In this document: positions 4,721-58,324 of the stretch, piece by piece
How positions within the stretch are numbered: position 1 is the first letter of the stretch
How the letters are laid out: the number at the start of each line of letters is the position of its first letter
NCBI GenBank assembly: GCA_963995505.1
Contig: OZ023189.1
Coordinates: 15,151,495 to 15,215,494, forward strand
Length of the DNA stretch: 64,000 nt
Direction of reading: 5' to 3'
DNA from: Hypericum androsaemum
Taxonomy: Eukaryota; Streptophyta; Magnoliopsida; Malpighiales; Hypericaceae
Position numbers and translations under genes: made by a program
Notes under the pieces: model-generated
Databases searched by the model: none
Seen by the model: the letters and a program-made list of their open reading frames with translations, nothing else
What the model was told of the DNA's origin: nothing

Positions 4721-5202
4721 TAAAATCAAGGGCAAATTACTCTTATGTCCCTGTACTTTGGTCATCCTCTTCCTAGGGTCCCTGGATTTTGGAAAATGAT
4801 TTTTCCGTCCCTAAATTTTGATGATAATAGACTCTCGGGTCCTTTTAGCCAGAATATTCCATATTCTCCGGCGATACTCCACTTGAAATGACCAAAATAC
4901 CCTTCAAAAAAAACAAAACAAAAATTTTCTACTTCAAAGAACAACTCCAATTCACGATGAAATAAAAAAGAAACCCAAGATCGAAGAACACCGATTAAAA
5001 AAGAAACCCAAGATCGAAGAACACCGATTAAAAAAAAATCCAAGATCGAAGAACATCGAAGAACACCCAAGTTCGCTCTTCCACCCTGCAACATTTATAT
5101 TTTCTTTTTTTCCCTTTCAGCAAATCCATGTGACGTTTACTGACAAACACCTGAAGGAGGTAATATACCCGGCATATGCAATGCTGCAAGACCTCGAAGC
5201 GA

Positions 5203-5352
5203 GGCTTTTTTCTAGTGAAGATAGAAGAAGACCGATCTTTCGGAGAAGGATGGCATGATTTTGCACGCTGTCACAACCTGAGAGTTGGCATCTTTCTCAC
5301 ATTTCGCTACCACGACAACATGGTATTTACGGTGCATGTCATTGATCGGACC
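5203..5352 (+). pseudogene. captured REM-type B3 domain fragment
   Basis: The plus-strand frame reads the C-terminal half of a B3 DNA-binding domain: FLVKIEEDRSFGEGWHDFA, then the LRVGIFLTFRY block and FTVHVID. This matches the strand order of REM (reproductive meristem) B3 proteins, whose usual form is ...F.GW..F...L..GDFLVFRY...F.V.IFD. The N-terminal half is not in the same frame. Downstream, acidic exon-like pieces (ESTQPHIVPSS, EDEEGDYEY) look like the linker between two B3 domains. A possible second B3 start (VTMKLQSCYV) lies at about 6045-6090. Nothing suggests an intact protein. Confidence 0.72.
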
Positions 5353-5404
5353 ACCACCTCCGAGCAACAGCATTCTCCTGAGGAAGACGAATCCACTCGG
5401 CCTC

Positions 5405-6025
5405 AGAATGTCCCCTCCTCCACTGGTATGCTTTTAATTTTGATATGCACACATATACTTGACTAGCAATGGCTTAGCATATATAGTTCTTAAAATGTGA
5501 TTCCATTTTTATTATGCAAGGTGAAACTCCAAAAGAATCCACTCAGCCTCATATTGTCCCTTCCTCTGCTGGTGAGCTTTTAATTTTAATATGCTCACAT
5601 GTACTTGACTAGCAACGGCTTAGCACATATAGTGCATCGCCGATTTTAGAGTTGTTGCGTGGTGTGTGTGCTTTGTCGATGATAGTGATGAGATTGTGCA
5701 TTTGAATGGAGACAATGAGTTTTCTCAGGATAGTGAAGATGAAGAAGGTGATTATGAATATACAGATGAAACTTTAGATGAAGATGAAGACTTGGTCTCT
5801 ACTGAGTCTTTCTCAGGATACTGAAGATGAAGACAGTGATTATGAATATACAGGTGAAACTTTAAATGAAGATGTAGACTTGGTAGATCTTCATCTTGAT
5901 AATAGATGATGTCCCCTCCTCTACTGGTGAGCTTTTAATTTTAATATGCTCACTTGTACTTGACTAGTAAGGGCTTAGCATATTTAGTTCATAAAATGTA
6001 ATTCATTTTTTATTATACAAGCAAA
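5405..6025. repeat. internal exon-intron duplications inside Pack-MULE A
   Basis: A unit of about 100 bp (end of an acidic exon, a donor-like ctggtgagct or ctggtatgct, then gcttttaattttaatatgctcac and cttgactag) occurs three times, near 5412, 5562 and 5912. A second duplicated pair (about 5731-5800 and 5817-5885) encodes the acidic repeat EDEEGDYEYTDET. These are direct repeats of exon plus intron, so the captured B3 gene was already expanding or expanded after capture. Confidence 0.75.
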
Positions 6026-6559
6026 ACACCATTCGAACAACAGTCATGTATTGTCACAATGAAGTTGCAAAGCTGTTATGTGCATGGTCGTCAATTGGTA
6101 CGTGACTATTGTCTCTTTATCGGGCCAAACATCGTCATCTCTGCCAACCTCGACACAAATGACAAATCTATTTATCCAAGCCAGCGACTTTCCAACCAAA
6201 CCCAACTCTTGCATTTTGCATCTTGCATCGTCTTCATCCATTGAAACCTAATTAAAAAAATTTATCCATTGATTTCTGGGTTGCATAACTTGAAGAAGGA
6301 GCTTAAGAACGTCTCGTGCCACGGCGGCCGTCAGAGAAAGCGATGAGGAAGGCCTTGACGGCGGTGCGAAATGCAACGATGTGGTCCCGCAGCCTGAGGA
6401 GCGGGGCGCCATCCGTCGCCACTTCATCTTCTCTGTATCAGTCGACCCGTACTCCGACCAAAAACCCGTACCCCTACTTGTTGAGAAGATGAAGGTGTCG
6501 GTGCCATGGAGGAGAGAGAGGATGTCGGTGTCGGTGCCATGTCGGTGTCGGTGCCATGG

Positions 6560-6655
6560 CCTTTGGTTTTTTGGGTGTTTAATTGAGATTTTGGGTGTTT
6601 AATTAGTTTTTTGGGTGTTTAATTGAGATTTTGGGTGTTTAATTGATTTTTTGGG
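6560..6655. repeat. short tandem repeat (ttttgggtgtttaatt)n
   Basis: About four imperfect copies of a 20-24-bp unit containing ttgggtgtttaatt, placed between the GC-rich interior and the right arm of Pack-MULE A. Confidence 0.8.
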
Positions 6656-7462
6656 AAGGGGATTGAACATGAAGATGTGATTGAAGATGAATGTCGGGGG
6701 AGAGAGAAGAGGGGAGGAAGGAGGGTGGTAAATTAATCTTTTTCAAGTGTGAGGGCATTTTGGTCTTTCCAAGTGGGGTATCGCCGGAGAATATGGAATA
6801 TTCCGGCTCTAGGGACCCGAGAGTCTATTATCATCAAAACTTAGGGACGAGATAATCTTTTTCCAAAAGTCAGGGACCCTAGGGGGAGGGTGACCAAAGG
6901 TCAGGGACGTGACGATAATTTGCCCTAAAATCAATGTGGGAACATTCAGCATTTTTAAATAGGGCAAATTACCCTCTAGTCCCTGACTTATGGTCACCCT
7001 CCCCCTAGGGTCCCTGACTTTTGAAAAATGATTGTCCCGTCCCTAAGTGTTGATGATAATAGACTCTCGGGTCCCTGGAGCCGAAATATTTCTTTTTCTC
7101 AGGCGAACCCCCACTTGAAAAGACTAAAATGCCCCTCCCACTAAAAAACAAAAAATCCCTCTCTTTCTTCCTTCTCTTCTCTCTCTCTCCCACTTCATCT
7201 TCTTCCTTCCACCTTCAAATAAACACTACTCAGAATTCAAAATCAAATAATCAATACCCACTTAATTAATTTCCCAACAATGATAGTGGACAAGGAATCT
7301 GGATATTTTTTTGCAGTGGACAAACACAAACGGAGATGGGTATTGATCTCTTAAAAGTTTCAGATTTGGGAAATTATAGCTTTGATTGGAAGTGTAACCT
7401 ACAGTAACTCAATAATTAAAACACACAGCAACTCAAAAATTCAAACACACAGCAACCTGGGA

Positions 7463-7619
7463 AAATCCTCATCGATGGCAAAGGCTGCTTCTCCTCTTCC
7501 ACCTTCTGCAGCTCATCGTAAACGGCATCGTCGCCTTTGAGGAGGAACTTGGAATGGCGGAACGTCTTGTGACAGTATCTCCTCTTCTAAAATTTCCTGC
7601 TCGGGCACTTGCCTCCCAT
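7463..7619 (-). pseudogene. captured exon 1 of a ZNF593/BUD20-like zinc-finger gene
   Basis: The minus-strand ATG at 7619 opens MGGKCPSRKF, then a stop, then KRRYCHKTFRHSKFLLKG and DDAVYDELQKVEEEKQPLP. After a one-base frame change the frame reads IDEDFP. This is the N-terminus of the plant homologue of ZNF593/BUD20, a nucleolar C2H2 protein of 60S ribosome biogenesis. In that family the sequence continues into the zinc finger (GQFYCLHC), which is absent here. The in-frame stop after residue 10 and the frameshift show it is non-coding. Family assignment rests on motif memory. Confidence 0.65.
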
Positions 7620-7694
7620 CTTCTTCTCCCCGGAGATTAGGGTTAGGGTTTCTCCTTTCGAGGGTTTTAATTTTATCAAACTGGGGCGCGAGAG

Positions 7695-7893
7695 GCCGAG
7701 CTGTGGAGTGGGACTCGGAGAGCAACCTGTGGGTTTGGACGACGAAGACAATCCTTGACAGCTTGGAGAGAGCATCCAACGACTTCTTCTCGTCAGGGAA
7801 GTCCTCCCTTGTAATGGCCCAAAGTCAAATTCTTCTCGTCAGGGGCCTCAGAGCGACGTCGTACATGCTCTTCATAGGCTCCAAAGTCGACAT
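7695..7893 (-). pseudogene. captured exon 1 of a PELP1/RIX1-like gene
   Basis: From the minus-strand ATG at 7893 the sequence reads MSTLEPMKSMYDVALRP. After a disrupted stretch it continues DFPDEKKSLDALSKLS and THRLLSES. This resembles the N-terminus of plant PELP1/RIX1-like ribosome-assembly proteins. A short internal duplication (gacgagaagaa twice) has inserted a stop and shifted the frame. Its 3' end runs into the 5' leader of the ZNF593-like exon in the same orientation, so the element is a chimera of two genes. The assignment is tentative. Confidence 0.45.
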
Positions 7894-8313
7894 CTTGGAG
7901 GACGGAGGAGAGGAGAGGAGGTGGTTGGGGCTCTTTTAGGCTTTAGAGATTTTAGCTTTTTAAGGGTTTAAGTGAGGACTCGGCCCATTTTTTTAATTGA
8001 TTTCAGATCTAGCAGATTTTGTTGTTCATTGGGTTTGAGTTTTAGTTAAAAATTTGAGGAAGAAGATGAAGTAGGGAAGAAGATGAAATTTTTAAGTGGG
8101 AAGGAGGAAATTTTTTGTTTTTAAGTGGGAGGAGCATTTTGGTCATTTCAAGTGAAGGTTTGCCGGATAAAAAGGAATATTCCGGCTCCAGGGACTCGAG
8201 AGTCTATTATTATCAAAACTTGGAGACGGGACAATCATTTTCCAAAAGTCAGGGACCCTAGAGGGAGAGTGACCAAAGGTTAGGGACGTGAGAGTAATTT
8301 GTCCTTTTAAATA

Positions 8314-14210: not shown

Positions 14211-14219
14211 TTCAGAGAG

Positions 14220-15294
14220 GGGTAAATTACTCTCAAGTCTTCCAAATTTGCTTAAATATACTCAAAAATTTTCCGTGTTTAAAAAATGATAATGTTGTCC
14301 CTCGTGTTTGATTTTATTATACTTTCAAGTCTCTCGATGAGTTTTTTTTCTTTTTTTGTTATTGAAATGACAAAAATACTCTTAGAACAAAAATAAAAAG
14401 AACTGTTGACATTATCTCTTCTTCTACCTCAATAATTTCATTGAACAAAAAATCTTCTTGGTCGATTCAATAAACCTTGAAAAATTAATAACCCATTCAT
14501 CTTCTTCATCGAACACAAATGCTATAAACACCAATTCTCCCTTTTAATAACCCGTTGGGATGTCGAGCCGCGGCGGAGACGTCGTCGGGCGGGTGGGGTG
14601 CGACCACCACGTAAACGAGTCGTGCGTCACCCGCGCGATCGCATCATGAGTGGTCGGCCCCGTCTCCTTCGACCTAGACAATGGCGACGCGAGCACTATC
14701 GTCTGGTAGTGAGTGGTTGGCCCCCAAGAACCGTCGTCGCAAAAGGTCCTCGCCAAGCACCATCTTCGTCCTCACTAAGCACTGTTGTCGCCGCCCTCGT
14801 CCTCGCCAAGCACCATCCTCGCCCTGGATTGACGGTAGATTTGGATTTAATTGAAGTTCTACCTAAGGTTCTCGATGTTCTTGGGTTTAAAATTTTTAGG
14901 CAAAAGGTTGGATTTCTAGTGTTCTTTGGATGTTTAATCGAATAGTGAATTAGTGTCCCTGCAGTTCGTGGGTGTTCCTGGATCTAGTGGATTTTGATTT
15001 TCGAGGCTGAAACAATCAAAGAGCAGTTCACCAATTGGGATTAGGGTTCTTACGGAATGGGAAATTTTTTAGGAGGAAGAAGAAGAGATGATGTCAGCAG
15101 TTTTTTACTTTTGTTCTAAGGGTATTTTGATCATTTTATTGACAAAAATGAAAAAAAAAAAAAGCTGATAACGTGCGCCAGGGACCCAAAAGTATAATAA
15201 AATCAAACACGAGAAACGTCAGCGTGTATTTTTTAAACAGTAGGAACTTTTGAGTACATTAAACAAATTCGAGAGACTTAAGAGTAATTTATCT
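14220..15294. mobile_element. MULE C with GC-rich captured segment
   Basis: Inverted arms of about 170 bp (14220-14390 and about 15115-15294) share AAATTACTCT-type starts and the internal phrase tgacaaaaatactc / gagtattttgtca type. The flanks ttcagagag and tttagaaat match at 6 of 9 positions, consistent with an old 9-bp duplication. The interior contains a sharply GC-rich island (14550-14830) unlike its surroundings, probably a captured host exon. I could not name the donor in any frame. Confidence 0.72.
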
Positions 15295-16806: not shown

Positions 16807-16815
16807 TTTTTTTAA

Positions 16816-17854
16816 GAGATAATTACTGAAGGAATCCCAGGGTATAGTCAAATAGATTTTGATGACCCTGTAATTTTTCTACTAATTACTGAGCCCCTGT
16901 AGTTTGGTTATTATCATACATTCTGATTCCGGGCTGATGTCAGCATTTTTTTCTTCCTTTTTTGTCACTTGAAAAGATCAAACTGCCCCTCTCACTAAAA
17001 AATCAAAATCAAAGTAAATAAAATTTTGACGGCCACGACTCCACCTCGGTGGCCCCCCGCTACTCCGCCTTATCGGCATCGGCCCGCCCTCCGCGAGATC
17101 GGCCTCAAGCTCGCCGAGCTTGCCCGCTCCGTCAATGTAAGATTCACCTTCCGCGGTGTCGCCACCTCCCGCCTGAGGACGTCAAGCCATGGATGCTACA
17201 GGTCAACCCCGGCAAGACCCTGGCGGTCAACTCCATCATGGAGCTCCACAAGCTCCTCTGGCTGGACCTCGCCGGGGCGCCGATCGAGACTGTGCTGGCG
17301 TGGATCCAGAGCCTAAACCTGAAGATCGTAACCGTCATGGAGCAGGAAGCCAACCACAACCAGGACAACTTCCTCGACCGCTTCACGGAGGTGCTATGTT
17401 ACTACTCCACGATGTTTGACTCGCTCGAGGCTTGCCTCAAGCTCGCGATTGCCGCGGCACCGGTGTCGTCGTCGACAGCCTCGTGGGCCGCGTTGAGGCC
17501 GAGCTTGGTGAGAGTGAGCTCGCACTGCGCCAGCGCTTATGGGTGGGAGATCACGCACGTGATGTACTCCCGCCGGACCCGGGAGATGCACCTCGCCGAC
17601 GATGTGGAGCCGGTGTCGGAGGAGGGCGATGTGGAGCCGGTGCCGGAGGAAGAAGAAGCTTTTCTTATTTTTGTGTAAGGGCATAAAGGTCATTTTAATG
17701 ACAAAAAAAAGAAAAAAATAATAATTGCTGACATCAGCCGGGGACCCGAGAGTATAATAGTAGCCAAACTACAGGGGCTCAGTAATTAGTAGAGAAACTA
17801 CAGAGTTCTCAAAGTCTATTTGACTATACCATGGATCATCTCAGTAATTATCTC
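16816..17854. mobile_element. Pack-MULE D, carrying a DELLA-type GRAS fragment
   Basis: Inverted arms of about 180 bp (16816-16998 and about 17675-17854) start GAGATAATTACTGA. They are flanked by a perfect 9-bp duplication (tttttttaa, 16807-16815 and 17855-17863). The interior (17030-17670) is GC-rich, and much of it is coding sequence from a GRAS-family gene. No transposase is present. Confidence 0.92.
17090..17430 (+). pseudogene. captured DELLA/GRAS-domain fragment
   Basis: In one plus frame (about 17090-17164) the sequence reads LREIGLKLAELARSVNVRF and FRGVA. In the next frame (about 17169-17430) it continues PEDVKPWMLQ, AVNSIMELHKLL, IVTVMEQEANHN, FLDRFTEVL and [11 protein letters not shown]. 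These are consecutive blocks of the GRAS domain (VHIID to LHRII and following) in the form typical of DELLA repressors of gibberellin signalling. A frameshift near 17165 breaks the copy. The DELLA/TVHYNP N-terminus and the PFYRE/SAW C-terminus are absent. From 17430 to 17678 the open frame goes on in GC-rich sequence I cannot place, possibly from another gene. The longest frame is 209 residues and could be transcribed. Confidence 0.85.
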
Positions 17855-17863
17855 TTTTTTTAA

Positions 17864-20623: not shown

Positions 20624-20632
20624 TTTGAGAAA

Positions 20633-22023
20633 GGGATAATTACTACCAGATTTTTAGTGTTTGGCATATTCGCCGTTCATTCTTTTGATATTCGAAAATC
20701 GATTAAAAATTCTCCCTAGTTTAGTAAAATTATACTCTCAGACCCCTCGTTGACATCAGCGGAGTTTTTTCATTTTTTGTCATGGAAATGACAAAAATAT
20801 CTTTAAAAAAATAATAATATATATCTACTTTCTTCGGCCTCAAGATCTCACTATTCACCAAGAACCAAACTTTTAAGGAAAAATTATGCTCAGGTCCCTG
20901 TAGTTTGGCGTCCCTCCCTCTAGGGTCCCTGGGTTTTCAAAATCCATGTTGTTGTCCCTGTAGTTTGGTTTTAGAAACTCCCGAGTCCCTGATGGCTCTT
21001 TTTTTCATTTTTTGTCATGGAAATGACCAAAATATCTTTAAACAAAAAATAAAAAAAATTCACCTTCTCCAACCTTTTATTTTTTTAAGGGTATTTTGGT
21101 TATGGAAAAATGAAAAAAGAGCCGTCAGGGACCCGAGAGTCTCTAAAACTAAACTTCGGGGATGTCAGGAACGATTTCAGAAATGCAGGGACCCCAGAAA
21201 GAGGAATGCCAAACTACAGAGACATGAGCATAATTTTTCCAACTTTTAATCAAGAATGTAAACGTAAACGCAAACAACAACCAATTAAAACACCTGCATT
21301 TCCAAAAATCCACCACCACCTGATGATCTCTTCTCCACCTCCAACTAAAAGCCCATCGACCCAGAAGAGGAAAAGCGAAAGCAACAGGAACCTGAACATT
21401 AAGAACCAAACAATCCACAGAGAACCCAGCTTGAACCCACCAAGGAACTCCAAGAACCAAACAATCCACCGGCGAAAATCGCAAGCAAACAGGTAAAGGG
21501 CGAAGATGGCGTCATTGTGGGTTCTGAGCGAAGTCGTGGGTTCCGCCGGTGGGATCTAAGCGAAGTCGTGGGTTCTGAGCGACGGCTAATGGATTCTGGG
21601 TTCAGCGTGAGGTTCCTGGGTTCGACATGAGGTTCATGGGTTCGGCATCAGATAGATCCTAGATTTTTATTTGATTTCAATTCTTTAATAAAAATTAATG
21701 GGTGTTGATTTTAATATTTAGATAAAAGTTTTTTATTTCAAGGTTGAAGATGAAGATCGGGAAAGAGATAGTTTTTTTTTATTTTTTCCAAGGGTATTTT
21801 TGTCATTTTTATGACAAAAAGCAAAAAATATCTGCTGATGTCAGCGAGGAGGAGTTTTTAATCTATTTTCAAAAATACGGGGGTTGAGAGGTGAATGAAA
21901 AATATCTAGGGACCTCAGAGTATAATTTTTCCAAACTATGAGAGATTTTTAATCGATTTTCGAACACTAAAGGGGGTGAGCGGCAAATATGCCAAACACC
22001 AGGGGCTTTGTAGTAATTATCCC
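20633..22023. mobile_element. MULE E (outer element)
   Basis: Long arms (about 20633-20820 and 21780-22023) begin GGGATAATTACTAC. The flanks tttgagaaa and tttcagaaa match at 8 of 9 bases. A second, smaller MULE (F) sits inside, directly after the left arm. The remaining interior (21241-21770) contains a Lys/Glu/Pro/Asn-rich low-complexity reading frame and repeated gtcgtgggttctgagcg units, with no recognised donor gene. Confidence 0.88.
20877..21240. mobile_element. MULE-type MITE F nested in element E
   Basis: 364 bp, almost entirely two inverted arms (20877-21070 and 21085-21240) starting GGAAAAATTATGCTC. It is flanked by a perfect 9-bp duplication (aacttttaa, 20868-20876 and 21241-21249). 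The small frames inside are arm sequence, not genes. Because it lies in element E, F inserted after E. Confidence 0.93.
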
Positions 22024-22032
22024 TTTCAGAAA

Positions 22033-23347: not shown

Positions 23348-23355
23348 GTCTTAAT

Positions 23356-38916: not shown

Positions 38917-39902
38917 GGGAAAAGTCCACTTTAGTACCCTGTGGTATCGCCCAAAATCACTTTAGTTCCCTGTGGTAAAAAACCGACCAATCGAGTCATA
39001 CTTATTCCAATTAACATCAAAAAGGGCCTCGGGCAGCTGCCCGGAGCTTCCCGGATCTGCCCGAACCCTGCCCCGGCTACGTGGCTAGCCACGTCACCAA
39101 TTTTTGATGACGTGGCGCCACGTGGAGAGGAGGAGGAGGAGGAGGACGCGGGGAGGAGGAGGAGGAGGAGGAGGAGGAGGAGGAGAGGAGGAGGAGGAGG
39201 ACGCGGAGGAGGAGGAGGAGAGGAGGAGGAGGAGGAGGAGGAGGTGGGGGAGGAGGAGGAGGAGGACGCGGAGGGGAGGAGGACGCGGAGGACGAGGAGG
39301 AGGAGGAGGAGGAGGAGGAGGAGGACGCGGAGGAGGAGGAGGAGGAGGAGGAGGAGGCGGAGGAGGAGTAGGAGGAGGAGTAGGAGGAGGACGCGGAGGA
39401 GGACGCGGAGGAGGAGGAGGAGGAGGAGGAGGAGGAGGTGGGGGAGGAGGAGGAGGAGGAGGACGCGGAGGGGAGGAGGAGGAGGAGGCGGAGGAGGACG
39501 CTGAAGAGGAGGAGGAGGAGGAGAGGAGGTGGGGGAGGAGGAGGAGGAGGAGGAGGACGCGGAGGGGAGGAGGAGGAGGAGGAGGAGGAGGACGCGGAGG
39601 AGGAGGAGGAGGAGGTGGAGGAGGACGCGGAGGAGGAGGAGGACGCGGAGGAGGACGCGGAGGAGGAGGAGGAGGAGGGAAGGAGGAGGAGGTCCACGTG
39701 GCGCCACGTCATCAAAAATTGGTGACGTGGCTAGCCACGTAGCCCGGGCAGGGTTCGGGCAGATCCGGGCAGCTCCGGGCAGCTGCCCGAGGCCCTTTTT
39801 GATGTTAATTGGAATAAGTATGACTCGATTGGTCGGTTTTTTACCACAGGGTACTAAAGTGATTTTGGGCGATACTACAGGATACTAAAGTGGACTTTTC
39901 CC
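38917..39902. mobile_element. inverted-repeat element with a (GGA)n core
   Basis: Arms of about 200 bp (38917-39124 and 39693-39902) start GGGAAAAGTCCACTTTAGT and are nearly perfect inverted copies. Each arm contains the palindromes ACGTGGCTAGCCACGT and ACGTGGCGCCACGT. Between the arms lies about 560 bp of almost pure GGA/GAG repeat broken by ACGC and GGTGGG interruptions. I see no convincing target duplication. The end sequence resembles that of the MULE at 56907 (GGAAAAAGTACAGTTTA), so it is probably a MULE-type or foldback element. The long Glu/Arg/Gly or Ser/Pro/Leu frames are artefacts of the repeat. Confidence 0.85.
39125..39692. repeat. (GGA)n purine-only microsatellite
   Basis: Strand-asymmetric homopurine tract, plus strand G/A only except for scattered C in gacgcgg and T in gtgggg or agtagg. 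Several higher-order repeats are visible, such as gtgggggaggagg recurring at about 39243, 39438 and 39529. Confidence 0.95.
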
Positions 39903-41169: not shown

Positions 41170-41175
41170 GTGGTG

Positions 41176-43430: not shown

Positions 43431-43442
43431 AGTGGGGGAGAA

Positions 43443-44042: not shown

Positions 44043-44045
44043 ACG

Positions 44046-45054: not shown

Positions 45055-45062
45055 CCGAGGCC

Positions 45063-46012: not shown

Positions 46013-46647
46013 CCGAGGCCACAACCCAAGGCATGTCGGCCCCCTGAGGCCGCGGCTCGACCCCGCTTTTGCACTAATTTTTTTTTGTCTGCTAACGGGC
46101 GGGCCCAACCCTAGGGCTACGGATGCACATCGTCTAAGTCACTTTTGGCTTTTTCTTGTCTCTCCCAAGTCAATTCCACTTAGACCTTACCACGGTTCGA
46201 ATTTGGACGAATTCGAATTCGAATTTATCAAAACATTAAACCATATTCAATTCTTCAAAAGACGAATCGAATACGAATTATGAAGTTTCGAATTAGAATC
46301 GAATTATAATCAAATTCGAATTATAATCGAATTCGAATTAATTCTATAATTTTAATACTTAATTAAAAAATTCTAAAACCTCTAATTTTTTGGATATTTT
46401 GAATATTTTTGTAATATTTTCGAAAAAGTTTAAAAACTTTTGATTTTTTTTAAAAATTCAAAAACTTTGATTTTTGCTTCAAATATTAAAAAAAAATTAG
46501 GAATTAGTGTTTAACATTTTTTGGGAAAAAGAAATAAACTAAAGTTTGGGCTTGCACTTAATGTACCAAATTAAGTTGCATACGTATCCTTAGCTCTGAA
46601 GGAATCAAAGCCCACGTAGTTCTGTTACCTTTATGGAGCTAACTCAC

Positions 46648-48738
46648 CTAGTCGGATGTGTTTGTGCTTTCACCGGTTGTGGCATCATCGAGGTCGTATA
46701 GTTGGTCGGGATTTTTCCGGACTAATTCTTGTTGTCGTCTTTCCGCCTTAGTCCAATCGGCGACCAATGCTTGTGCCTCCAAAGATTGCGGTGTCATTGA
46801 GTACCGGTGTTCATCCAAAATATTACCTCCTGCACTAAATGCTTGTTCCACGGCAACCGTCAAAATCGGACAAGCGAGCAATTCTTTTACAACAATTGAC
46901 ATAACCAGAAATTGTTCTACATGGTTGTTCCACCATTCTAATAAAGAAAAACTAGAAGATTTGACAAATGGAATATCAAATTGTGTGTTAAGATATAAAT
47001 CAAATTCCGAATTGGTTAAACTTATTCCTCGGGGTCTTTTTTGTTTTTTCATTAACAATCTTTCCGTAAAACTTAATTTTTCACCTTGTGAGGGAGAGGG
47101 AGTTGGTTTATTAGATGTAGAAGCATTATTCCTAATACTATATTCACTCATTAAATCTAAAATATCTTTTTTTACATTGTTTGTAATTATTACAATATGA
47201 TCTTCTAGATTTGCAACTTGCAAAAAAATTTCCAAATTTGTGTAATACGCATATAATAAATTTTGTAAACCATCAATTTTAATGTTCGGCATAAAAATGG
47301 TTGCAATTAAATTAAGTTGGAGAATCTTCTTGAAATACTTTAACCATTCGTTAGCCATTTCTGAAACGCATGATGACAATGCAAAATCTTGATAAGCGCT
47401 ACATATTGCCTCCGATATATTACAATAGTAAATGAGATGTAGGATAATAAACACCCAATAAAAGATGTGTAGCATAATTAAAACATTCTAAAAGTTCATT
47501 TAATTTTTCTACAAGGTCCCAATGGTGAGGTTGTAACATAATATTATTAGTTTGATCATTAGATGCAAAAAAATTACATAGAAGTTCTTTGTATGGAAGA
47601 GCTTCTTTTAACAATTCATAAGTCGAATTTCAACGATGTTGAACATCTTGTGGAAAACGTTTTGGTTTCATATTGTTTAATTTGCAAAAATTTTTCCATT
47701 CTTTTAGCAATTTTGGGCGAGCCCATAGTAAATTAAGTGCTTGTTTAATTGGTCCTAATGTAGAGTCTAAAGCTTTAATTCCATCTTGGGTACAAAGATT
47801 AAATATATGACATGCACATCTAATATGAAAAAAATTTCTCCAAATCGTGTACAAAAAATTTCTAAATCTTTAACCATAACATTATTAGAACTTGCATTAT
47901 CTAGAGAAATTGAAAATATTTTTTGAACTAGATTATATTCTTGTAAAATAGTATGCAACATTTTATAACAATTATTCCCACTGTGACTATCATCAAAAAC
48001 TCTATATGCAATTATTCTTTTTTGTATATTCCATTTATTATCAATCCAATGACATGTAACACCAAAATATGAATGTGTTTGCCAATGATCACTCCATATA
48101 TCATAACATATAGAAACTCGACCATCAAAATCAAAGAAAAAAGTTTGTAATTTTTCTTTATTTTTCTTGCATAAATCTTTTACATATCGTGTTAATGTAC
48201 TTCGTGGAACTTTTTTTGCACTAGGATTTAAAGCATTTTGACAATAAGTTGTAAAATTAAGTTTTTCACCAAAACTAAAAGATAAATGTTCGGTAGCAAC
48301 TAATTTAGCTAATTCCTCTATATTATTTTGATCGGTATAATGAAATAAAATATTAGGTGTAGTAGATAATTGAGTTTGTGATTTTTCAAAACCAACTTCA
48401 CATGGATGTTTAGTATTCAAATGAATAGTATAAGTACCATATCCATTCCCGGTTTTGAATTCATATTGTTTACCACAATAATTACATGTAATTTTGAAGA
48501 TACCTTTTTCTCCAGTAGAAATTTTTGTGAAATGCTTAGTAAAAAGTAATGAAGGTGGTCTTTTTACCTTTTGTGAATTGTTGAATATTGAATCAACACT
48601 TTCCCGTTGAGCTTCATCATGGACGTTCATCATTTCTTTCGGAATAGGATAAGTAGAAATCGGTGGAAAATCTGATTCAATAGAATCGTGATGTTCCACA
48701 CGGTTTTCCATACCCTTTTTTGCTCTACTTGATGACAT
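46648..48738 (-). pseudogene. hAT transposase (zinc finger BED / RICESLEEPER-like), broken
   Basis: Start ATG at 48738. The first frame (323 residues, to 47767) has a BED finger with C85, C88, H106 and H111 (CNYCGKQY, HLNTKH). The RNase H-like catalytic core shows CYDIWSD and SLDNASSNN. A frameshift near 47840 leads to GIKALDSTLGPIKQAL. A TGA at about 47632 replaces Trp of the HRWNSTYELL motif. Another shift near 47430 leads to the last frame, with the DUF4413 remainder and the hATC dimerisation block (FLVMSIVVKELLACPIL, then VEQAFSAGG). Only three small lesions separate it from an open frame, so decay is recent. Confidence 0.92.
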
Positions 48739-49044
48739 AATTATATAGTAATATGAGTAATTATATGAGAAATATGACTAATATATCTAATTAGTAAACT
48801 TGAGGGAGAATTTATATAGCTCAAATTTTCAATAAGAGAAGTAGAGAATTGAGATTGGAATGTGTAAAATTTGAAGAATAAGAGGTGATATTTATAGAGT
48901 TTGGAAGAAATTCTGAATTTATTTAAAAAAATTAAAAAGTACCAACAATAAAAAAAGGTAACCTGGGGATTTAAACGGTAACAAAAAAATGGTCAGAAAA
49001 ATGGTAATTTGCCCCTGACGTCAGCAAAATTCAAATAACACCTG

Positions 49045-49071
49045 CCCCCCCCCCCCCCCCCCCCCCCCCCC
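49045..49071. repeat. homopolymer C run (about 27 C)
   Basis: A run of about 27 cytosines in the subterminal region of the hAT element. The corresponding position of the sister copy near 36836 has only about six C. It is either a recent slippage expansion or an assembly or sequencing error. Confidence 0.85.
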
Positions 49072-49434
49072 TTTTGAATTTTTATGAATTCGAATCGAAT
49101 TCGATACGAATTTGAATCGAATTCGATACGAATTTGGTACGAATTCAACTCGAATCGAATTCTCAAAATGAATTCGAATTGAATTCGCCGGTTTTACGAA
49201 TTACAAAAAACTTGAACCGTATTCAATTCTTATCATGACAAATTCGAATCGAACTTTTTGATGAATCGAATTATTGTCGAATCGAATCGAATTTTTTACG
49301 AATCGAATCGAATCGAATCATGAATCAGATTCAATTCATGGCCAGGTCTAATTCCACTTCCCCATGTCAATCCCCCAACTAGATTTTGAGGGTTTTGTGA
49401 TTTTTTGGCAAAATTTTTTTGGTAAGTATTTTTT

Positions 49435-50198
49435 GGGTAAATTATCCTCAGGTCTTTGGTTTATAATTTTATTATTTTTAGGTCCCTGGTTTTTCAAAAT
49501 AGTATATATCGTCCCTGTTTTTTAGAAAAATGTTGGTCTCGGGTTCCTGGCTAACATCAGCACCTATTTTTTCTTTTTTTGTCATATGAAATGACCAAAA
49601 TACTCTCGAACAAAAAAATAAAAAATTATAATCTTCAACCTTAAGATGCTCATGAACACTTTCCTAGAGATCAACCTAAAATTTTTCAAAATCAAATAAC
49701 ATATTTTCTATCACCAAATCATCAACCTAAATCACATCAAACAACAAAAATAGATTAAATTTTTCCAACCCAAATCATCAAGTCCCCATCCCCAGCGAAG
49801 GCATCTAAGAACACTAAATCAATTTCAATTTCTGAGACAAGGAGATGGGGAGGCCGACTTCCAATCATCTTCCTCGCCCAAATCTTCAAAACCACTTCGG
49901 TTCATCTTCTACTCACAAATTGAAAACACCATGGAACCCTAAGGCATAAAAGTTTTCTGGGTTCGATTTCCATGATTTAAATTTCCATGGTTTAGATAAA
50001 CTGAACAGTAAACCAATTTCTGGGTTCATCTTCTGCTTGTTGGTCTCAAGAACTCCATGGGCAAAGCCGAAATCACCATCACCACCACTAACGCCCGGGT
50101 TCCGGTTCCCTCCCGCCGTCGCTAAAGGAGGAGAGGTTGGAGCATTACAACTTCCGGCGTCGGTGTCAACCGGAGGGATATCGACTAGCTCGATTTCA
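49435..50198. mobile_element. single MULE-type arm and adjacent sequence
   Basis: From 49435 the sequence GGGTAAATTATCCTCAGG and the following phrases (ggtccctgg, gtcatatgaaatgaccaaaatac) match the arm style of MULEs A-F. I could not find the opposite arm. Interior-like sequence follows, ending in a GC-richer 190 bp (50030-50190) of unrecognised coding look. Probably a truncated Pack-MULE. Confidence 0.5.
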
Positions 50199-50362
50199 GA
50201 TCGAAACTTTTATTCGATTTCAGTTATCGAATAAATTATTCAAGTTCCAACCCTAAATTGAAAAAAAAATTCGATTTAGGTCACTTTTTGCACTCTCTCT
50301 CCTCCCTCCCCCTCTCTCTTCCCCCTTTTTTTCTCCCTCCCTCACCCGCTCTCTCTCTTAAG
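50199..50362. repeat. copy 1 of a 165-bp direct repeat (arm of a foldback element)
   Basis: agatcgaaacttttattcga and the following CT-rich tract recur at 53407-53573 in the same orientation with few differences. In the second location it is the left arm of an inverted-repeat structure. Confidence 0.85.
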
Positions 50363-51289
50363 GAAGTTTTGAGTATCCAACGGTTCGCGACGCTTCGAGG
50401 ATAGTTGTGCTACGAACTCGAAGTAAAAAAGTCGTTGTATCTTGGAAACAATTGCCGTAGCCCATAAGCACTTAATACGGAGCAATCTCGTCTTACGGAG
50501 AAAGAATCAAATTCTTGCCTCGACTTTAGATCCTAATCAAGTACACCATCCTCTGGGTTACAACAACAACTCCGAAGTAATTACATGAAAAGCAAAGCTG
50601 GGTTGCACGGGAAGCAAGCCACAGCAAAGAACATTCTTGTTAACAAGCACACCTAGAACACCGAAACATGTACAAAGCAAATGGTGGAAAAAGCTACGCC
50701 AGAGCACCTAGAACATCCCGACCATTTTGGTGGTGAAATTTGGAAGAGAGACCCGACAGTAGGACCACTCCGAGGTGCGCCACCTTTGATTAACTTGCCA
50801 GTAAGTATTACATTTTGCAATGTAATGAGAGTGTTTCGCTGGCGTTAGTTCGCAATTAACCAAATTTATTTTAAGATGGCGTTAGTTTGGTGATTTATAC
50901 ATTATGGACATTGGTTTCGAGCAACTTTTGGATAATATTTCATATATCGTTTGCAAAAGTAGTTAATTAGTTTATAAAAGTTGATACTCCATATACCATT
51001 GTCTAAAAGTTTGGTGTTAAATATGAAAATTCTAATATAATATATAAGAGAATTGTTCCCTTGTCGTTATTATCCTCACAACTTATGTTTTATCTTAAGT
51101 TGATAAAATTCCCTTTAGATCTCATTCTTGTGGAATATCCATCCAATATATTCAGATCTGTTACATAAAGAAATATTCATCCACCTGATATCTATCCCGG
51201 TCTCTTCAAATCTACACATTTTTTCAGATCTCTCATATTTAGAGTTTAAAATCACTTTCAAATCCACACATTAATTAGCAAGGATTCTT
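50363..51289. other. unassigned sequence
   Basis: No family match in any frame. The segment 50390-50800 has balanced base composition and may be exon or retroelement leader sequence, but I cannot name it. Confidence 0.4.
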
Positions 51290-52685
51290 GCAATTAGTAT
51301 TAGAATCAGGGCAAGGTGTGTCTTTTACAAAAATCTCTTTATGAATCAAAGTTGGCCAGCAAACAATGATTTGCTAAATTGACCTCTTTACTTCTTGCTA
51401 TGGGTTTTGTTCAATCCTAAAGTGATCATTCTTTGTTAACTATGGTGGACTCTGCTGGTTTTTTCCTAGCATTATTGGTTTATGTTGATGATATAGTGTT
51501 GATAGGGGAATCTACTCAGTCCATTGCAACAGTTCAGCGGCATTTTAGTACCAAATTGAAGGTTAAAGATCTTGGTGAACTAAAATACTTCTTGGGTCTT
51601 GAGCTGGATAGACAACCTGATGGACTTCATCCATGTCAAAAGAAATATACCTTGGATCTTCTAACAGAAATTGGGTTCTTGGGATGTAAACCAGTTTTCA
51701 CACCTACAGAACCTGGTTTTACACTTTTTGCAGAAGAAGATCCTAGTCATCTCTTGGATGATATTCATGTGCCTGTTGATGAGGAAGAGTGTACACTTGA
51801 TCCAACTGTTACTTTTACATCTTCTTCTTACAGGAAATTGATAGACAAGCTCCTGTACTTGACTACAACTCGTCCAGATATCACTTTTGGAGTACAACAT
51901 CTAAGCCAATTTAATAGCAAACCTTCTCATAATCACATGAAGGATACACAACGTGTTCTTCGTTATCTGAAATGTAACCTAGAAGCTGGTATTCTCTTTT
52001 CCAATAGGTCTGACTTTCAGTTAAAGGGGTTATGTAGACAGTGATTATGTGAATTGCTTTGATACTCGTCAATTTGTTATTGGTTATGCGGTGTTCCTTG
52101 GTGATTCTCTGATTGCCTGAAAATCAAAGAAACAGACTACAGTTTTGTGTTCCTCATCTGAAGCAGAGTACAAAGCTCTTGCTCAGCTGACTAATGAACT
52201 ACAGTGACTGCAATATATTCTTCAGGATTTACACATACCTCTCTTAGGTCCCTCATTGGTTTATTGTGACAATCATTCTACCATTTATATAGCAGAAAAT
52301 CATATTTTTCATGAGCGTGCTAAATATATCGAGATAGACTGTCATGTCACTCGAGAAAAGGTCCAACAAGGTTTGCTAAAGCTCTTTCATGTGCCTACAA
52401 AATATCAGGTTGCTGACTTGTTTACAAAGGGCTTATTTGGGAAACAACATCATTATTTGGTGTCCAAGTTGGGCATGATTGACATCCATGCTCCAACTTG
52501 CGGGAGGCTGTTGTCGAAAAGTGTACCAAGTGCAGCATGCTTTGGCTCTCTGAGTTTAAAACTTTAGCGTGTTGTACTTGGGACATTTTAGTCATTGTAT
52601 AGCTAAGGATATTAGTATAAATACTGGGATACATTGTGTACCAATGGTAGAGACCTATAATAAAGAGAACAATTTTATTTCTTCA
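51290..52685 (+). mobile_element. 5'-truncated copia element 3 with 3' LTR
   Basis: Plus-strand reverse-transcriptase/RNase H remains (below) end at a purine tract (gcgggaggc). A 177-bp presumed LTR follows (52509-52685), starting TGTTGTCG and ending TTCA, with a TATA-like tataaata (52615) and aataaag (52660). Everything upstream of the reverse transcriptase palm is missing. It belongs to a different copia lineage from elements 1 and 2. Confidence 0.85.
51433..52510 (+). pseudogene. copia reverse transcriptase palm and RNase H remnant
   Basis: The frame 51433-52044 has the catalytic LLVYVDDIVLIG, VKDLGELKYFLGLEL and LIDKLLYLTTTRPDI. After a frameshift the RNase H reads YVNCFDTRQFVIGY, SSSEAEYKALAQLTNELQ and VYCDNHSTIYIA, then HIEIDCH-like and KYQVADLFTKGL. 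A stop at about 52119 and another near 52203 interrupt it. Confidence 0.88.
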
Positions 52686-52689
52686 GTTT

Positions 52690-53400
52690 TCCCCTTTTTG
52701 CTCCAAGCCAAGTAACCGTCTCCGTCCAACTTGGAAGCTCCGATTAAGCTCTGAATGAGCTCTGATAAAGCTTGCCTTTGCTACTTTGACAGACCTTGCA
52801 GTTACAAGCGAGAGATGCTCCACGAAAATACAACTACACCATACAAGATACAAGGCAAAGAAAATCATAAGAGCGTGGGTGGGAATTGTGAAACAAACAG
52901 ACGCGGAGAAAAGAAAATGATAGGGGACCTGGAGGATCTTGTTGAGGACGTAGAGGCGGCGGGCGGCGTATATGCTGGTGATTGGGAACTGCAGGAGGAT
53001 GGTTGGTGGGGAGTTGTCGGAGGAGGGTGGCTAGGGGTTGCAAGGACAAAGAGGGAACTAAACTAAGGAAACCCCCTTCGGTTGGTGCGTTCTTTCATTT
53101 TTTTCTTGCTGGTTTATGGAGGAGAGAACTAAACTAAGAATTAGGAAACCCTCTTCGGTTGGTGATTTCTTTCCTTCTTCTTGCTGTTTTCTGGGGAGAG
53201 GGCGGGAGAGAGAGGCTACTTATTATGAGCAGGAAAGTTTTAAAGTAAGTGGAATAAATGCCCCTCGGAGTCCTAAGTTAGTTATGGTTTTTGGCCCAAA
53301 ATGGTGCTACATTAGTATTTTTTTTTTACCAATTTAGTGTTATTGTTGAAAATATTCTGGATACGGTGTCCCTTTCTTAGGTCAAATTTATTTTTCGACT
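52690..53400. other. unassigned sequence with a short tandem duplication
   Basis: An imperfect duplication of about 70 bp (53050-53118 and 53122-53194) contains gaactaaactaag and cttcggttggtg. Overlapping frames at 52755-53066 have no recognised family. Confidence 0.45.
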
Positions 53401-53406
53401 TTGACC

Positions 53407-54300
53407 CAGATCAAAACTTTTATTCGATTTCAGTTATCGAATAAATTATTCGAGTCCCAACCCTAAATTGATTTTTTTTATTTGGGTCACTTTTTGCACT
53501 CTCCTCCTCCCTCCGGCCTCCCCCTCTCTCTTCCCCTTTTGTTTCTCCCTCCCTCACCCGCTCTCTCTCCTCGGTCTCCTCACTTTCCCTCTATCTCTCT
53601 TCTAGTTTTTTTTTGTGTAGTTACTAAAAAGTCAATTCCATTTACCCTTGTCTCTCTTAAATTCTACTATTCTAAATCAATTCTTAATTTATTTTCAAAA
53701 AATGTCACACATTTATTTGTTCATGAAATTTATTTAAATAACTTGTCTACTATAAATGACACTTGTTATACTTGAACAACATTTCAACTTAAAAAGGTCA
53801 AATTTATGTTTAATATAAATAAATTATTTTATCTAGCAATATATAATTAAGTAAAATTATTCACTATCACAAATCAAATATTTAAAATTGTATTACAAAC
53901 GGGAAGGATTATTTTTGCAAATCCATTATTTATTATCCAATTTAAAATGGCTATCTATAATATTGAATCCAAATTCATTTCATTTTTTAAATATACAATC
54001 TAGAATTCGGACTCACTCGACCGGATAATTTAGATTCGATGTAGGTAAAATTTTAAAATGTGGTAAAATTTCTGACAAATATTTAACATCATTTAAATAA
54101 ATTTCATGAATAAATAAACATGTAATATTTTTTAAAATAAATCAAGAATTGATAAAAATTGTAGAATTTAAGAGAGATAAAATAAATGAAATTGATTTTT
54201 AATAAATACACAAAAAAATAAACTAGAAGAGCCGGGGGTCTCCAGAGAGCGCGCGTGAGGGTGGGAAAAAAGGGGAAGAGAGAGGGGCATCGCAAACAAG
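53407..54300. mobile_element. foldback-type inverted-repeat element
   Basis: The segment at about 53515-53745 (CT-rich tract, cttctagttttttttt, then aagtcaattcc and aatttattttcaaaaaatgt) is inverted at about 54085-54300. The arms are roughly 75-80 percent alike by eye. The loop is AT-rich with no gene. The outer 110 bp of the left side (53407-53515) also occurs at 50199, so the arm belongs to a dispersed family. I could not fix exact ends. Confidence 0.65.
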
Positions 54301-54805
54301 TTCTGCCATGGACTATCAGCCAAACTCCAATCTCTACTTGGAGCAACAATATTCAGCGACTTGATGCTGATGATGATGCAAGAGCACTCAACATGCCCAA
54401 TTCCATGATCTTCGGACAACTCCAAGATCTCCCAAGATCAGAAATGTCAGAGCCTATAAATAGAAATCCTCATCTAACTGTAAGTGACGCGATGTTCATT
54501 TTCTCATTGAATAAAGATTTTTGGAAAAAAAAACCTTATTATCTTTGGATTTATACTAACTGGTATCCAAACATCCATTAAATTGAGTGATTTAGATTTG
54601 AATCGGATAAGTCCTTGAAAAAAATCTCCCAAAAAATATTTCTTTTCTCTAATTTTGTTGAGTCTCTACTATACAGGCCAGAGACTATAACATTGCTTGA
54701 GAATATGGTCAATTTGCCATAGCCAGGAGCTGGTGGTGGTGGCTTGAGGTACATGGAATAATCTAAAGATTGCCTTTAGATGATGGGATTTCCTTGATGT
54801 TCTCT
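54301..54805. other. sequence upstream of the bHLH pseudogene
   Basis: An open plus frame to 54581 has no family match. A TAG (in frame with the bHLH sequence) lies at about 54811, so no start codon is available in this stretch for that frame. Confidence 0.5.
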
Positions 54806-54813
54806 GAGTAGGG

Positions 54814-55618
54814 AAACTTATGGAGCTCCAATGGTGATGGACATGGCCAAGCTCAAGCAGCAGCTTCCTCGGGCGAATCGGAGAACACCACCACCACCAA
54901 GAAGAAGAAGAAGAATGATAGTGGTGCTAATAAGATTGTCGCTACCAAGAGAAAAAGTGTGGCTGATCTAAGTGGCTTTGAATTGGAGAATCCTCCCTTT
55001 GAGGTCTTAGAAAATGATTACTGTTCCATTGCTACAACAGGGTTTAGGCTAATCTCTGATGAAGATCAACCAAAGCAGAAGAAACCCAGATCAGATAATA
55101 GTAATATGAAGAAGCCAAGCTCATCCAATATCAATTTCCAGCAGCCAAGCTCATCATCTTCCTCCATTGACCACGAGCCGGCCCCCGAAGCCATCCAGCA
55201 GATGAAGGAGATGTTCTACAGGGCAGCCGCCTTTCGGTCAGTGAACTTAGACACGGAGGTGGTGGTGGAGAAGCCGAAGAGGAAGAACGTGAAGATCTCG
55301 AGTGACCCACAAACAGTTGCAGCCAGGATGAGGAGTGACAAGATCAGTGACAAGATTAGGGTTTTGCAAAAGCTGGTCCCTGGTGGCTGCAAGATGGACA
55401 CTGCTTCCATGCTTGACGAGGCTGCTAATTACCTCAAGTTCCTTAGGTCACAAGTCAAAGCACTGTAAAATTTAGGGCACAAGCTTGACTCAGTGATGAT
55501 GATGAATAATTACCTTAATCCTTCAACAACAACCATTGCCTTTTCCTCATTACCTCTTAACCATCACCAGCTTTTTCCCATGCAAAGTCACTTTTCATCA
55601 CTCTTCCAAAAGCCCTAA
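54814..55618 (+). pseudogene. bHLH87/HECATE-like transcription factor, decayed
   Basis: Open from about 54814 to a TAA at 55466. The bHLH domain (about 55270-55465) contains [44 protein letters not shown] and FLRSQVKAL, the plant bHLH VIIIb form. Three faults are visible. No ATG exists in frame between the upstream TAG (about 54811) and the domain-bearing sequence. The basic region reads [10 protein letters not shown] where the family has RxRRERISEK, losing the Glu-Arg pair needed for E-box binding. And TAA replaces the expected Glu after KAL, although the following 50 codons (NLGHKLDSV, NYLNPSTTT, to a TAA at 55616) keep the family's C-terminus in frame. A first exon lost upstream would be an alternative to a true start-codon loss. 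Confidence 0.8.
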
Positions 55619-56897
55619 TCAACTCACCCAAAGAATGCAAAAAGAAAAACCCATTAGTCAATTAAGAAGTCTTGTTAGCTTTTTGCTTTGTCATGCTTAG
55701 TCCTTGTATTTTGTTTTCTTTTGAGCAGAAAAAGCTAATATCATGAGGCTAATTATGAATGTTTGATTACACTGTGATTACATTCCTGATTAAGTGACTC
55801 ATCATCATTTTTACTTTCTGCCAAGTGCTTTCAGAAGTTCTATTTCCCCTCCAGGGTTTGGTGCCTCCATTTTATCGAAAATACCTGATATCTGGATACA
55901 CATCAAACCGATTTTTTTAGTTCCGATGTATTTCATAATTTATTTATTTTTAAATTTGATACGCGAAAAGCCCTACCAATTATAGCACCTATGATTGAGA
56001 TCAAGGAGCTAGCGAGAAAGTGATGGCCACTTTAATTGCGCCTTTATGTAATTTGTTTAATCCATCCAATGCACTTGGGCCTCACTTTTCTTGGAGAACT
56101 TTTATGACATTAATTTAATGTAACCTGTTAGCAAACCAATGCAAAAGACATTCTCTTAAGAGTTGCAAACCCAAGCCTGTGGTCCTGTCCCCTAGATTCA
56201 ATCCAAGGCGTGCCCTTGAAAATCCCACTTTTTTCTGGTTGCTTAGCAGATGTATTATGCCTTTTCTTTGGCAGGTTCTCCAATATATTATTACACTAAA
56301 TTTTTTAGATTAATGTGAGTTGATATAAGTACTAAATGATTTGAATTTGTTTAAGAACTTCTCAAGTTAAGTATTTTAATTGTGAAAGATACGATTATGA
56401 GAGCCACTACAATGTTCGACTCTGAATATCAGAATTTTTCGAAAGAATCTCGGCCCTGTATTTTAATCTCGGCTAATGATGTTGTTAAATGATTGCGGTG
56501 ATGATGATGTGGGTTTATTGGCTTCTGCCTCCTTGGCTGGTTCCACAAGTTTGTCTTATAATAGTTGAGAAAAAGTTTCAATTTCAGGTTTTGTGGTTGG
56601 GGATATGTGTTAACTTTAGGCGCATTCTATTTTGTTTAAGTATGTATCAATCATTACTGATTAAGTCCGGTTATATTCAGATAACAAATATAAAAGTACT
56701 AAATCCAAATTAAAAAAATACAAACGAAATACAAATTTATCAGCCATTACACTCACGATGGAGCTACTCAAAATGCACATAGTTACAGAGCATAACGAGG
56801 ATTTTGTTGAGCCAACTCATGTTGTAGGCACATCCTATTTTTCTAGGAGCTTATGCTAGCTTTTTTGGTTTTATTCAACTAGTGAAAGACAGCAATA
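55619..56897. other. AT-rich intergenic region
   Basis: Includes the former 3' region of the bHLH sequence. No gene or bounded element is recognised before the MULE at 56907. Confidence 0.5.
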
Positions 56898-56906
56898 ATT
56901 AAAATA

Positions 56907-58324
56907 GGAAAAAGTACAGTTTACCTACCTGTAGTTTGTCCGATTTCGCGTTCAAGACGTGTGGTTTCAATTTGATAATTTAGTCTCTGTGTTTTCCAAT
57001 CTTTTATAGTATACGGTCCACTCCGGATGACGAGGATAAAAATGTTCACGTGGCTTGCCACGTAGGCTAATACGACGTCATTTTATTGCCACATGGCAAG
57101 GTAACTGGGTAAGTTGTTTGACATAGTTTTTAGTGAATAATTACCAAATTGATCCCAGCTATTTTTTATATTAAAAAAAAAATCCTATCGCTCCTCCTCT
57201 CCTTCTCCACCACCTCCTACCTCTTCTCCTAAAACATTAGCTCACCCGAAATCCAAATGGAACCGAAAAACAACAAGAACCGAAAACAAAAGGGAAACAA
57301 TAATTGGGGCCGTAAAACGGTTTATTGGTATCGGGATCGCCCTCGACAAACAAAAGGGAAAAAAAGAGGAAAATGCAAAGGGAGGAGAAAAGAAGAAACA
57401 TAGGAGCTGGTGGTCGGGGTCGAGGAGCTCGTCAAGGACGGGGGTGTAGCCTCTGTGCTTATCGTTCCTGAGGACTCTCATCTTCTCCTCCATAATTTAG
57501 GCTAACGGATCAATATTAAAACTCGCCCTAACGAAAAGAATCCGATAGACGGAGGAAGTAAGGGGCACCTATTTAAGGGAGGAGACGGAGCGGGTGAGGT
57601 CGGGGTCGGAGAGGTCGACGCAGTTGAGCACCGACACGGCGTCGCCTCCATTCTCCGCCGTCTTCTTCTTCTCCATCTCTGATCTTTCTATATTTCTTTT
57701 TCTTTTTTCTTCTTTTCCTCCGTTCAGGTTGTGGTTGAGAGTGCGGGACGAGGAGGGCCTCTAGTAGCTTCCGTGATTCCCGTTGACCATATCGGCGTTC
57801 CTGCATCGGGGGCATAGTACTAACAGCGGGATTAATGGAATTGAAGCCATTTTTGGATTACAGACCATGCTAATAGTTGGGCCCACGAGAAGGGCACGAC
57901 GCGGGACGAAGGGAACGAGAGGTAGGAGGTTTCTGTTCCATTTGGATTTCGGGTGAGCTAGTGTTTTAGGAGAGGATGTAGGAGGTGGTGGAGGAGGAGG
58001 AGGAGAGGACGAGGAGAGATAGGAGGAAGGAGAGGAGGAGCGATAGGGTTTTTAAAAAAAATATAAAAAATAGCTGGGATTAATTTGGTAATAATCCACT
58101 CAAAACTATGTCAAACAACTTACCCAATCATCTTGCCACGTGGCAATAAAATGACGTCGTATTAGCCTACGTGGCAAGCCACGTGGATATTTTATCCCCG
58201 TCATCCGGAGTGGACCGTATACTATAAAAAATTGAAAAATACAAAAACTGAATTATCAAATTAAAACAACACGTCCTCAACGCGAAATCGAACAAACCAC
58301 ATATAGATAAATTGTACTTTTCCC
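56907..58324. mobile_element. Pack-MULE H, carrying 2-oxoglutarate dioxygenase pieces
   Basis: Arms of about 350 bp (56907-57262 and about 57940-58324), starting GGAAAAAGTACAGTTTA and GGGAAAAGTACAATTTA, are flanked by a perfect 9-bp duplication (attaaaata, 56898-56906 and 58325-58333). Each arm includes an ACGTGGCTTGCCACGT palindrome. The interior (57240-57860) contains two exon fragments of a dioxygenase gene in minus orientation. No transposase is present. Confidence 0.94.
57404..57665 (-). pseudogene. captured exons of a 2-oxoglutarate/Fe(II) dioxygenase-like gene
   Basis: Minus strand 57660-57570 reads AENGGDAVSVLNCVDLSDPD, then LTRSVSSLK and a stop. This is the N-terminal DIOX_N start of plant isopenicillin-N-synthase-type dioxygenases. 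Minus strand 57493-57404 reads MEEKMRVLRNDKHRGY, then TPVLDELLDPDHQ, which is the next conserved block of the same proteins. The block between them (QACLDSGFFY-type) is missing, as is the catalytic HxD...H jelly roll. Order and orientation fit two exons with intron sequence between. Confidence 0.82.

Follow-up and report, generated by a model that had tools for sequence, protein, structure and literature searches.

The question raised by this locus is whether the Mutator-like elements (MULEs) crowded into it belong to one gene-capturing family that is or was recently active, as a sequence-only reading had proposed, or are remnants of several families with something else in common. The locus is a stretch of 64,000 nucleotides of Hypericum androsaemum DNA (contig OZ023189.1, positions 15,151,495 to 15,215,494), all of which was analyzed and is called here the window. 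It contains the remnants of nine non-autonomous elements of the terminal inverted repeat (TIR) type, with up to eight arm families. We consider it very probable that these are old insertions, some of them with captured pieces of host genes, whose arms share a spacing register and which were moved in trans.

Remnants of Nine Mutator-like Elements

The boundaries were re-derived by testing terminal pairing and the 9-bp flanks jointly, and by blind scans. The elements and their target site duplications (TSDs) are as follows.

Element A, 4730..6925: TIR-MULE, TSD TAAAATCAA (9/9), arms 82% alike
Element B, 6962..8304: TIR-MULE, TSD TTTTAAATA (9/9), arms 86% alike
Element C, 14220..15294: TIR-MULE, TSD 6/9, arms 78% alike
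Element D, 16816..17854: chimeric MULE with captured genes (Pack-MULE), TSD TTTTTTTAA (9/9), terminus GAGATAATT
Element E, 20633..22023: TIR-MULE, TSD 8/9, arms 61% alike in the multiple alignment, contains F
Element F, 20877..21240: 364-bp MULE nested within E, TSD AACTTTTAA (9/9)
Element G, 38917..39902: MULE-like, arms 98% alike, without a clear TSD
Element H, 56907..58324: TIR-MULE, TSD ATTAAAATA (9/9), extended arms
Element I, 49435..49625 (+): orphan left arm of a ninth element, found by an arm model

The seven elements for which the sequence-only reading had given duplications were all recovered with those same degrees of match, and element G was added. TIRs longer than 100 bp are present in all eight complete elements (A-H); element I has one arm, and a search for its partner did not find it. 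The gap between A and B is 36 bp. F lies wholly within E and has its own duplication, and therefore E is the older of the two. The terminus of G, GGGAAAAGTCC, is related to the ends of other elements. Together with the orphan arm, the elements span 9,638 bp (15% of the window).

When a perfect 9-bp duplication and a terminal match of at least 17/24 were required, the blind scan gave seven matches, i.e., A, B, D, F, H, a low-complexity match in the arms of H and a CGAATTCGA repeat, and at this threshold it misses C, E and G. Locally shuffled windows (n=60) gave a mean of 0.017 matches, with a maximum of 1, and the TIR and TSD structure is far above chance. In addition, the GC content of the seven elements tested (all the complete ones but F) exceeded that of their own flanks; GC-rich sequence is reported to be favoured by the Pack-MULEs of rice and maize (PMC3310237).

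Elements of this kind are well known. Maize Mu/MuDR also makes a 9-bp TSD, and the long-TIR MULEs of tomato and Arabidopsis (Ferguson and Jiang 2012, PMC3310237) are like those described here in their AT-rich 9-bp TSDs (e.g., TTTTAAATT), their length of about 1-1.4 kb and their gene fragments. Unlike the present elements, which have single arms, those described there have whole arms that are tandemly duplicated, and TIR identity, which is 87-95% in five rows for PM-ZIBP, is lower here.

Further structure was observed in three of the elements. In H, a 70-bp inverted repeat (57199-57268 and 57930-57999, 93% complementary) prolongs the arms inward and may represent captured sequence at both ends. 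The interior of G (39127-39692) is a 566-bp repeat of GAG type between near-identical arms. Directly downstream of the orphan arm I lies a copia-like element (50197-53601) with direct repeats 92-95% alike, which may have split element I.

Dissimilar Arms with a Common Spacing Register

We analyzed whether the arms belong to one family. The identity table covers A-F, and G, H and I diverge further, as judged by eye in the alignment of 17 arms. Between the arms of different families, identity was 44-67%: the arms of F were 61-67% identical to those of A and B, and the arms of C, D and E were 44-61% identical to those of other families. The arms of A and B were 78-84% identical to each other, and the left and right arms of one element were between 61% (E) and 86% (B) identical. 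For tomato, TIRs were assigned to one family at 80% identity over 80% of the length (PMC3310237). By this rule A and B would make up about one family, and C, D, E and F would each stand apart. A single active family calls for such identity together with near-identical ends, which only A and B approach, so that the proposal of one family was not borne out. The ends had been described as shared, and this holds for the left ends of A, B and C, which carry GGGNAAATTAC exactly, but the others deviate (GAGATAATTAC in D, GGGATAATTAC in E and GGAAAAATTAT in F). The first nine bases of D, GAGATAATT, are presumably those of the maize Mu terminus.

The common order of phrases in the arms, by contrast with the single family, is real and can be quantified. 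Counted from the terminal base, a GTCCCTG-like phrase (resembling GTCCCTGTAGTTT) is found repeatedly at positions near 18, 49, 78 and 110, in steps of 31, 29 and 32 bp, which are close to three helical turns. A slot at one of these positions (each ±1) was scored as filled when it matched GTCCCTGTAGTTT in at least 8 of 13 bases. In this way the 16 arms filled 46 of 64 slots, against 14 such matches elsewhere in their first 150 bases, and the arms of A, B and F filled 23 of 24. The pooled self-similarity of the 16 arms, which are not independent of each other, peaked at lags of 30 and 31 (z 7.2 and 7.8). Tested singly, 12 of 17 arms showed internal repetition at 30-31 bp (p<0.01), and with one left arm per family the combined p was 8e-9, or 1e-6 without A/B/F.

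As a test against circularity, a 13-base model was trained on A, B and F at positions 18, 49 and 78 and scored on C, D, E, G and H. In these held-out elements, the five positions with the highest mean score were 110, 19, 78, 77 and 49, and the register statistic at 18/49/78 had a z of about 10, which none of 2000 dinucleotide shuffles reached. Furthermore, with a 120-base model that omitted the element under test (A and B being omitted together), all 16 arms came out at ranks from 10 to 31 of 127,762 positions. With the full 120-base model, which includes the arms themselves, a new arm was detected at 49435 (+) with a score of 26, the next best score being 3.0. This arm, of element I, aligned with the arms of F (E 1.6e-15), E, C, D, A and B, and it carries the phrase at 48 and 77 and a weak form of it (7/13) at 18. 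A spacing grammar of this fixed kind could reveal divergent elements that are overlooked by searches based on identity, as the arm model did here in one case.

The register was also looked for outside the plant sequence. In a small control with viral contigs, the 33 places that carry the 15-mer GTCCCTGTAGTTTGG, at least 17 of which are near-copies of two sequences, scored 2-8/13 at the companion positions. A scan of the viral contigs for the pattern gave one match, located in a phage-like coding frame and without the register, and a scan of these contigs for a variant pattern gave none. Arm A had no match among plasmids.

Repeated units in MULE arms have been described in other systems. Motifs repeated inside the TIR (motif-I and motif-II) are reported for PM-ZIBP (PMC3310237), and in Aedes aegypti, Muta1 and its relatives carry short repeated units in the TIRs of 10 of 12 long-TIR families (PMC5225508). 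Muta1 has nine 12-bp units with spacers of 3-4 bp, whereas here up to four sites lie about 30 bp apart. Maize MURA binds one TIR motif of about 32 bp (PMC3310237, PMC4178011). Sites at fixed distances that are shared between families are not described in the sections of PMC3310237 consulted, and among the matches listed in the open-licence literature no description was found of a fixed multi-site register shared between plant MULE families.

What the Register May Do

To our knowledge, how transposases recognise very diverse arms is not settled, and the register may show how one enzyme recognises very different elements. It could represent a row of sites, as many as four and spaced by about three helical turns, at which a transposase makes contact. 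The contacts would then lie on one face of the helix, and related transposases, supplied in trans from elsewhere in the genome, might act on widely differing arms. The elements insert with a 9-bp AT-rich target duplication, and some have acquired host gene pieces in the interior. As a tentative proposal, which we hold to be possible and not yet probable, plant MULE arms would carry a ruler of as many as four degenerate sites resembling GTCCCTGNNNTTT, placed near 18, 49, 78 and 110 bases from the terminus, three helical turns apart and common to families whose arms are 44-61% identical. A transposase would read this ruler and not the overall sequence, so that mismatched arms would stay mobile and one transposase could move many families together with the genes that they have captured.

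The same register could be a neutral relic, if a unit of about 31 bp was duplicated in tandem to form the ancestral arm and was then inherited without present function. We take this to be a possibility of a similarly tentative kind. The families look distantly related, so that a shared register would follow from descent, and the motif columns are kept no better than the linkers between the left and right arms of an element (49/221 mismatches in the motif and 81/493 in the linkers, p 0.07, in the wrong direction for a conserved site). However, identity to the left arm of B falls to about 45%, and yet the alignment with it over the first 116 bases needed only 0-3 gap openings per arm. Between families, the GTCCCTG columns were more alike than the linkers (0.516 vs 0.423, p 0.0014). 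Both observations speak against a relic. We did not rely on the gap counts of 10 in the first 118 bases and 28 beyond, since the latter includes free end gaps. The pattern within elements and between families fits sites that were important during movement and later decayed, and it agrees just as well with an ancient tandem duplication that left a neutral trace.

Several further observations weigh against our main reading. The left arms of C and E fill one slot each, and G fills two of the four sites in each arm, with the phrase at 19 and 50 only. In the held-out test, one position on the reverse strand came close to the mean model score (-2.44 vs -2.08). Internal repetition was not significant singly in both arms of D, both arms of H and the left arm of C, and only 9 of 17 arms lay above the 95th percentile of 3000 control segments. 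A shared register is in part expected because the arms are distant relatives. As to the elements themselves, the TSD of C matches at six positions of nine; that of D is of low complexity and is therefore a weak witness; that of G is not convincing, with 4/9 at the natural ends and 6/9 when shifted; and neither a transposase nor an autonomous partner was seen.

A third account would make the repeated phrases targets of an anti-silencing protein of the VANC type, or of silencing RNAs, instead of a transposase. In one MULE family of Arabidopsis, VANC21 binds a 9-base motif arrayed in tandem outside the coding parts (PMC5735166), which speaks for this account. The arrays of the VANDAL elements are reported in that study to gain and lose units fast, whereas the phrases found here keep a fixed distance from the terminus, and a Pfam search of the interiors of A, B, C, D, E and H gave no VANC-like match. 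This account appears improbable to us.

Captured Gene Pieces

The sequence-only reading had reported recognisable exons from host genes in at least four elements. The pieces concerned are listed below.

5164..5463 (+), in A: open frame with a putative captured B3-domain piece (Pfam PF02362)
7419..7640 (-), in B: possible captured exon, tentatively ZNF593/BUD20-like, no tool match
17081..17440 (+), in D: captured DELLA/GRAS piece, frame broken near 17166-17175
17400..17625 (-), in D: captured prephenate/arogenate dehydratase (PDT) piece, frames broken
57405..57677 (-), in H: possible captured 2-oxoglutarate dioxygenase exons, DIOX_N below the cut-off

Capture was firm in D. An open frame of 218 codons matched GRAS (E 1.8e-22) and, in PDB, DELLA chains (best 1.1e-20). 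It also matched three GRAS-domain proteins, of which two are called DELLA by their source; the best of the three was 72% identical over 40% of the query. A GRAS stretch upstream, in another frame, had an E of 0.011 alone, and when the break was read through with an X the value became 4.2e-32. For the PDT piece, one frame gave E 1.2e-4, under the curated cut-off, and the pieces of three frames joined by hand gave 1.4e-6, above it. The joined pieces also matched an NCBIfam model (1.6e-6, far under the cut-off of that model) and a PDB dehydratase (0.024), and the longest PDT frame alone had no match. The label "arogenate" is one that we presume from plant biology. D is thus firmly a chimera of two unrelated genes on opposite strands, with a DELLA piece and an antisense PDT piece, and it illustrates clearly how one element can take up parts of two genes. 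A Pfam match to AvrPtoB_bdg opposite the GRAS piece (E 0.0014, under the cut-off) was judged to be due to chance.

In A, a B3 domain was detected at E 1.3e-5, with 25.4 bits against a curated cut-off of 30.1, and at E 1.7e-4 in the six-frame scan. The search against PDB gave chance-level rows only, including a plant protein (At1g16640, E 1.1). Capture of a B3 domain in A is moderately supported by these profile matches. In the same interior (5408-6055), a unit that resembles exon and intron is repeated about three times at 80-90% identity.

The indication for H is weak. DIOX_N was matched at E 0.018, 0.015 and 0.08, all below the cut-off and weak given the 36 frames scanned, and a likeness to a single subfamily of 2-oxoglutarate dioxygenases is presumed, in which an exon would end at a GT resembling a splice site. 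The piece in B may likewise be ZNF593/BUD20-like. Homologue searches with the pieces of H and B gave nothing convincing, and a match to WDR3 in B (E 0.32) was put down to chance. No capture was recognised by the six-frame scan in the interiors of C and E (right part), and ten further interior pieces that were searched returned only one chance row. Hence, of the four or more carriers proposed, only two have tool support, D firm and A moderate, but H is weak and B a tentative likeness.

The six-frame scan covered the right part of E and the interiors of A, B, C, D and H, 36 frames in all. No transposase domain was detected in these interiors, which upholds for them the statement that none of the elements encodes a transposase. 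Pack-MULEs have host gene fragments between their arms and no transposase gene; such fragments were found in D (GRAS, PDT) and, moderately, in A (B3), and no transposase gene in the six interiors scanned. These results supported the description of the elements as non-autonomous and Mutator-like, with pieces of host genes in some of them.

Pack-MULEs shuffle exons, and those of rice include chimeras of several genes. The elements described here resemble rice Pack-MULEs in having captured host gene fragments without a transposase (Jiang et al. 2004, as cited in PMC8903248 and PMC13317346). Such elements had been said to be best documented in grasses, which is true for numbers, with 2,853 in rice and 276 in maize (PMC3310237, Table 4), but 46 in Arabidopsis and 220 in tomato (same table), and 1,447 in sacred lotus (PMC4053705), are also in print.

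Age, Activity and Capture Rate

In order to judge the age of the insertions, the arms were compared with the duplications. All arm pairs other than that of G (seven of eight) differed by 13-22% in the first 118 bases. Without G, the arms had 144 mismatches in 819 positions of these first 118 bases, and the TSDs of A-F and H had 4 in 63 (Fisher p 0.02); the chance of five perfect TSDs at the divergence of the arms is 3e-4. Since the TSDs are nearly intact and the arms have diverged, much of the arm divergence either predates insertion or accrued faster than that of the flanks, and the arms were probably unequal already when the elements moved. Under either origin of the divergence, the data do not show recent activity. 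The description of the elements as active or recently active was not sustained, given the differences in seven of eight arm pairs and the broken frames of the captured pieces of D, and the elements may be regarded as old insertions.

That the elements make up one Pack-MULE family, active now or until recently, which captures genes at a high rate, seems to us quite unlikely. It would agree with the five perfect TSDs, with A and B forming one family, and with the share of complete elements that have a capture, which is 2/8 with tool support or 4/8 when leads are counted; the published share of MULEs in four genomes is 1.6-9.4% (PMC3310237). At least two captures in eight elements would have a probability of 0.17 at the rice rate and of 0.007-0.02 at the other three (Arabidopsis, tomato and maize), and four in eight would be unusual at all four published rates. 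These figures are not a fair test, however, because the window was picked for its richness, and a high capture rate, resting on this one window, is possible. Against such a family stand the inter-family arm identity of 44-67%, the divergence of 13-22% in seven of eight arm pairs and the frameshifts in the captured pieces of D.

Other Features of the Window

The window has 53 open frames of at least 110 codons, and twenty long ones outside the elements were scanned. They included PRA1, pieces of protein kinase, a phosphatase, bHLH, and pieces of copia and hAT elements, and together with the captured pieces these frames indicate a plant nuclear genome. The window gave no tRNA and no RNA family at the gathering score.

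Pieces of copia elements lie on the minus strand, with gag at 1281-2225 and reverse transcriptase at 31446-32486. A 150-bp unit in two copies with 98% matches (2220-2520) adjoins the copia gag frame. At 46217-49095 there is a remnant of a hAT transposase, with a dimerisation domain and a BED finger, between AT-rich CGAATTCGA-like repeats. Finally, a 290-bp candidate for a small element (26603-26892) has GGGASCGGATTTGG-type ends and a flank repeat of 8/9 (GGTAAAAGT/GGTAAAAGG), and is possibly a miniature inverted-repeat transposable element of another kind.

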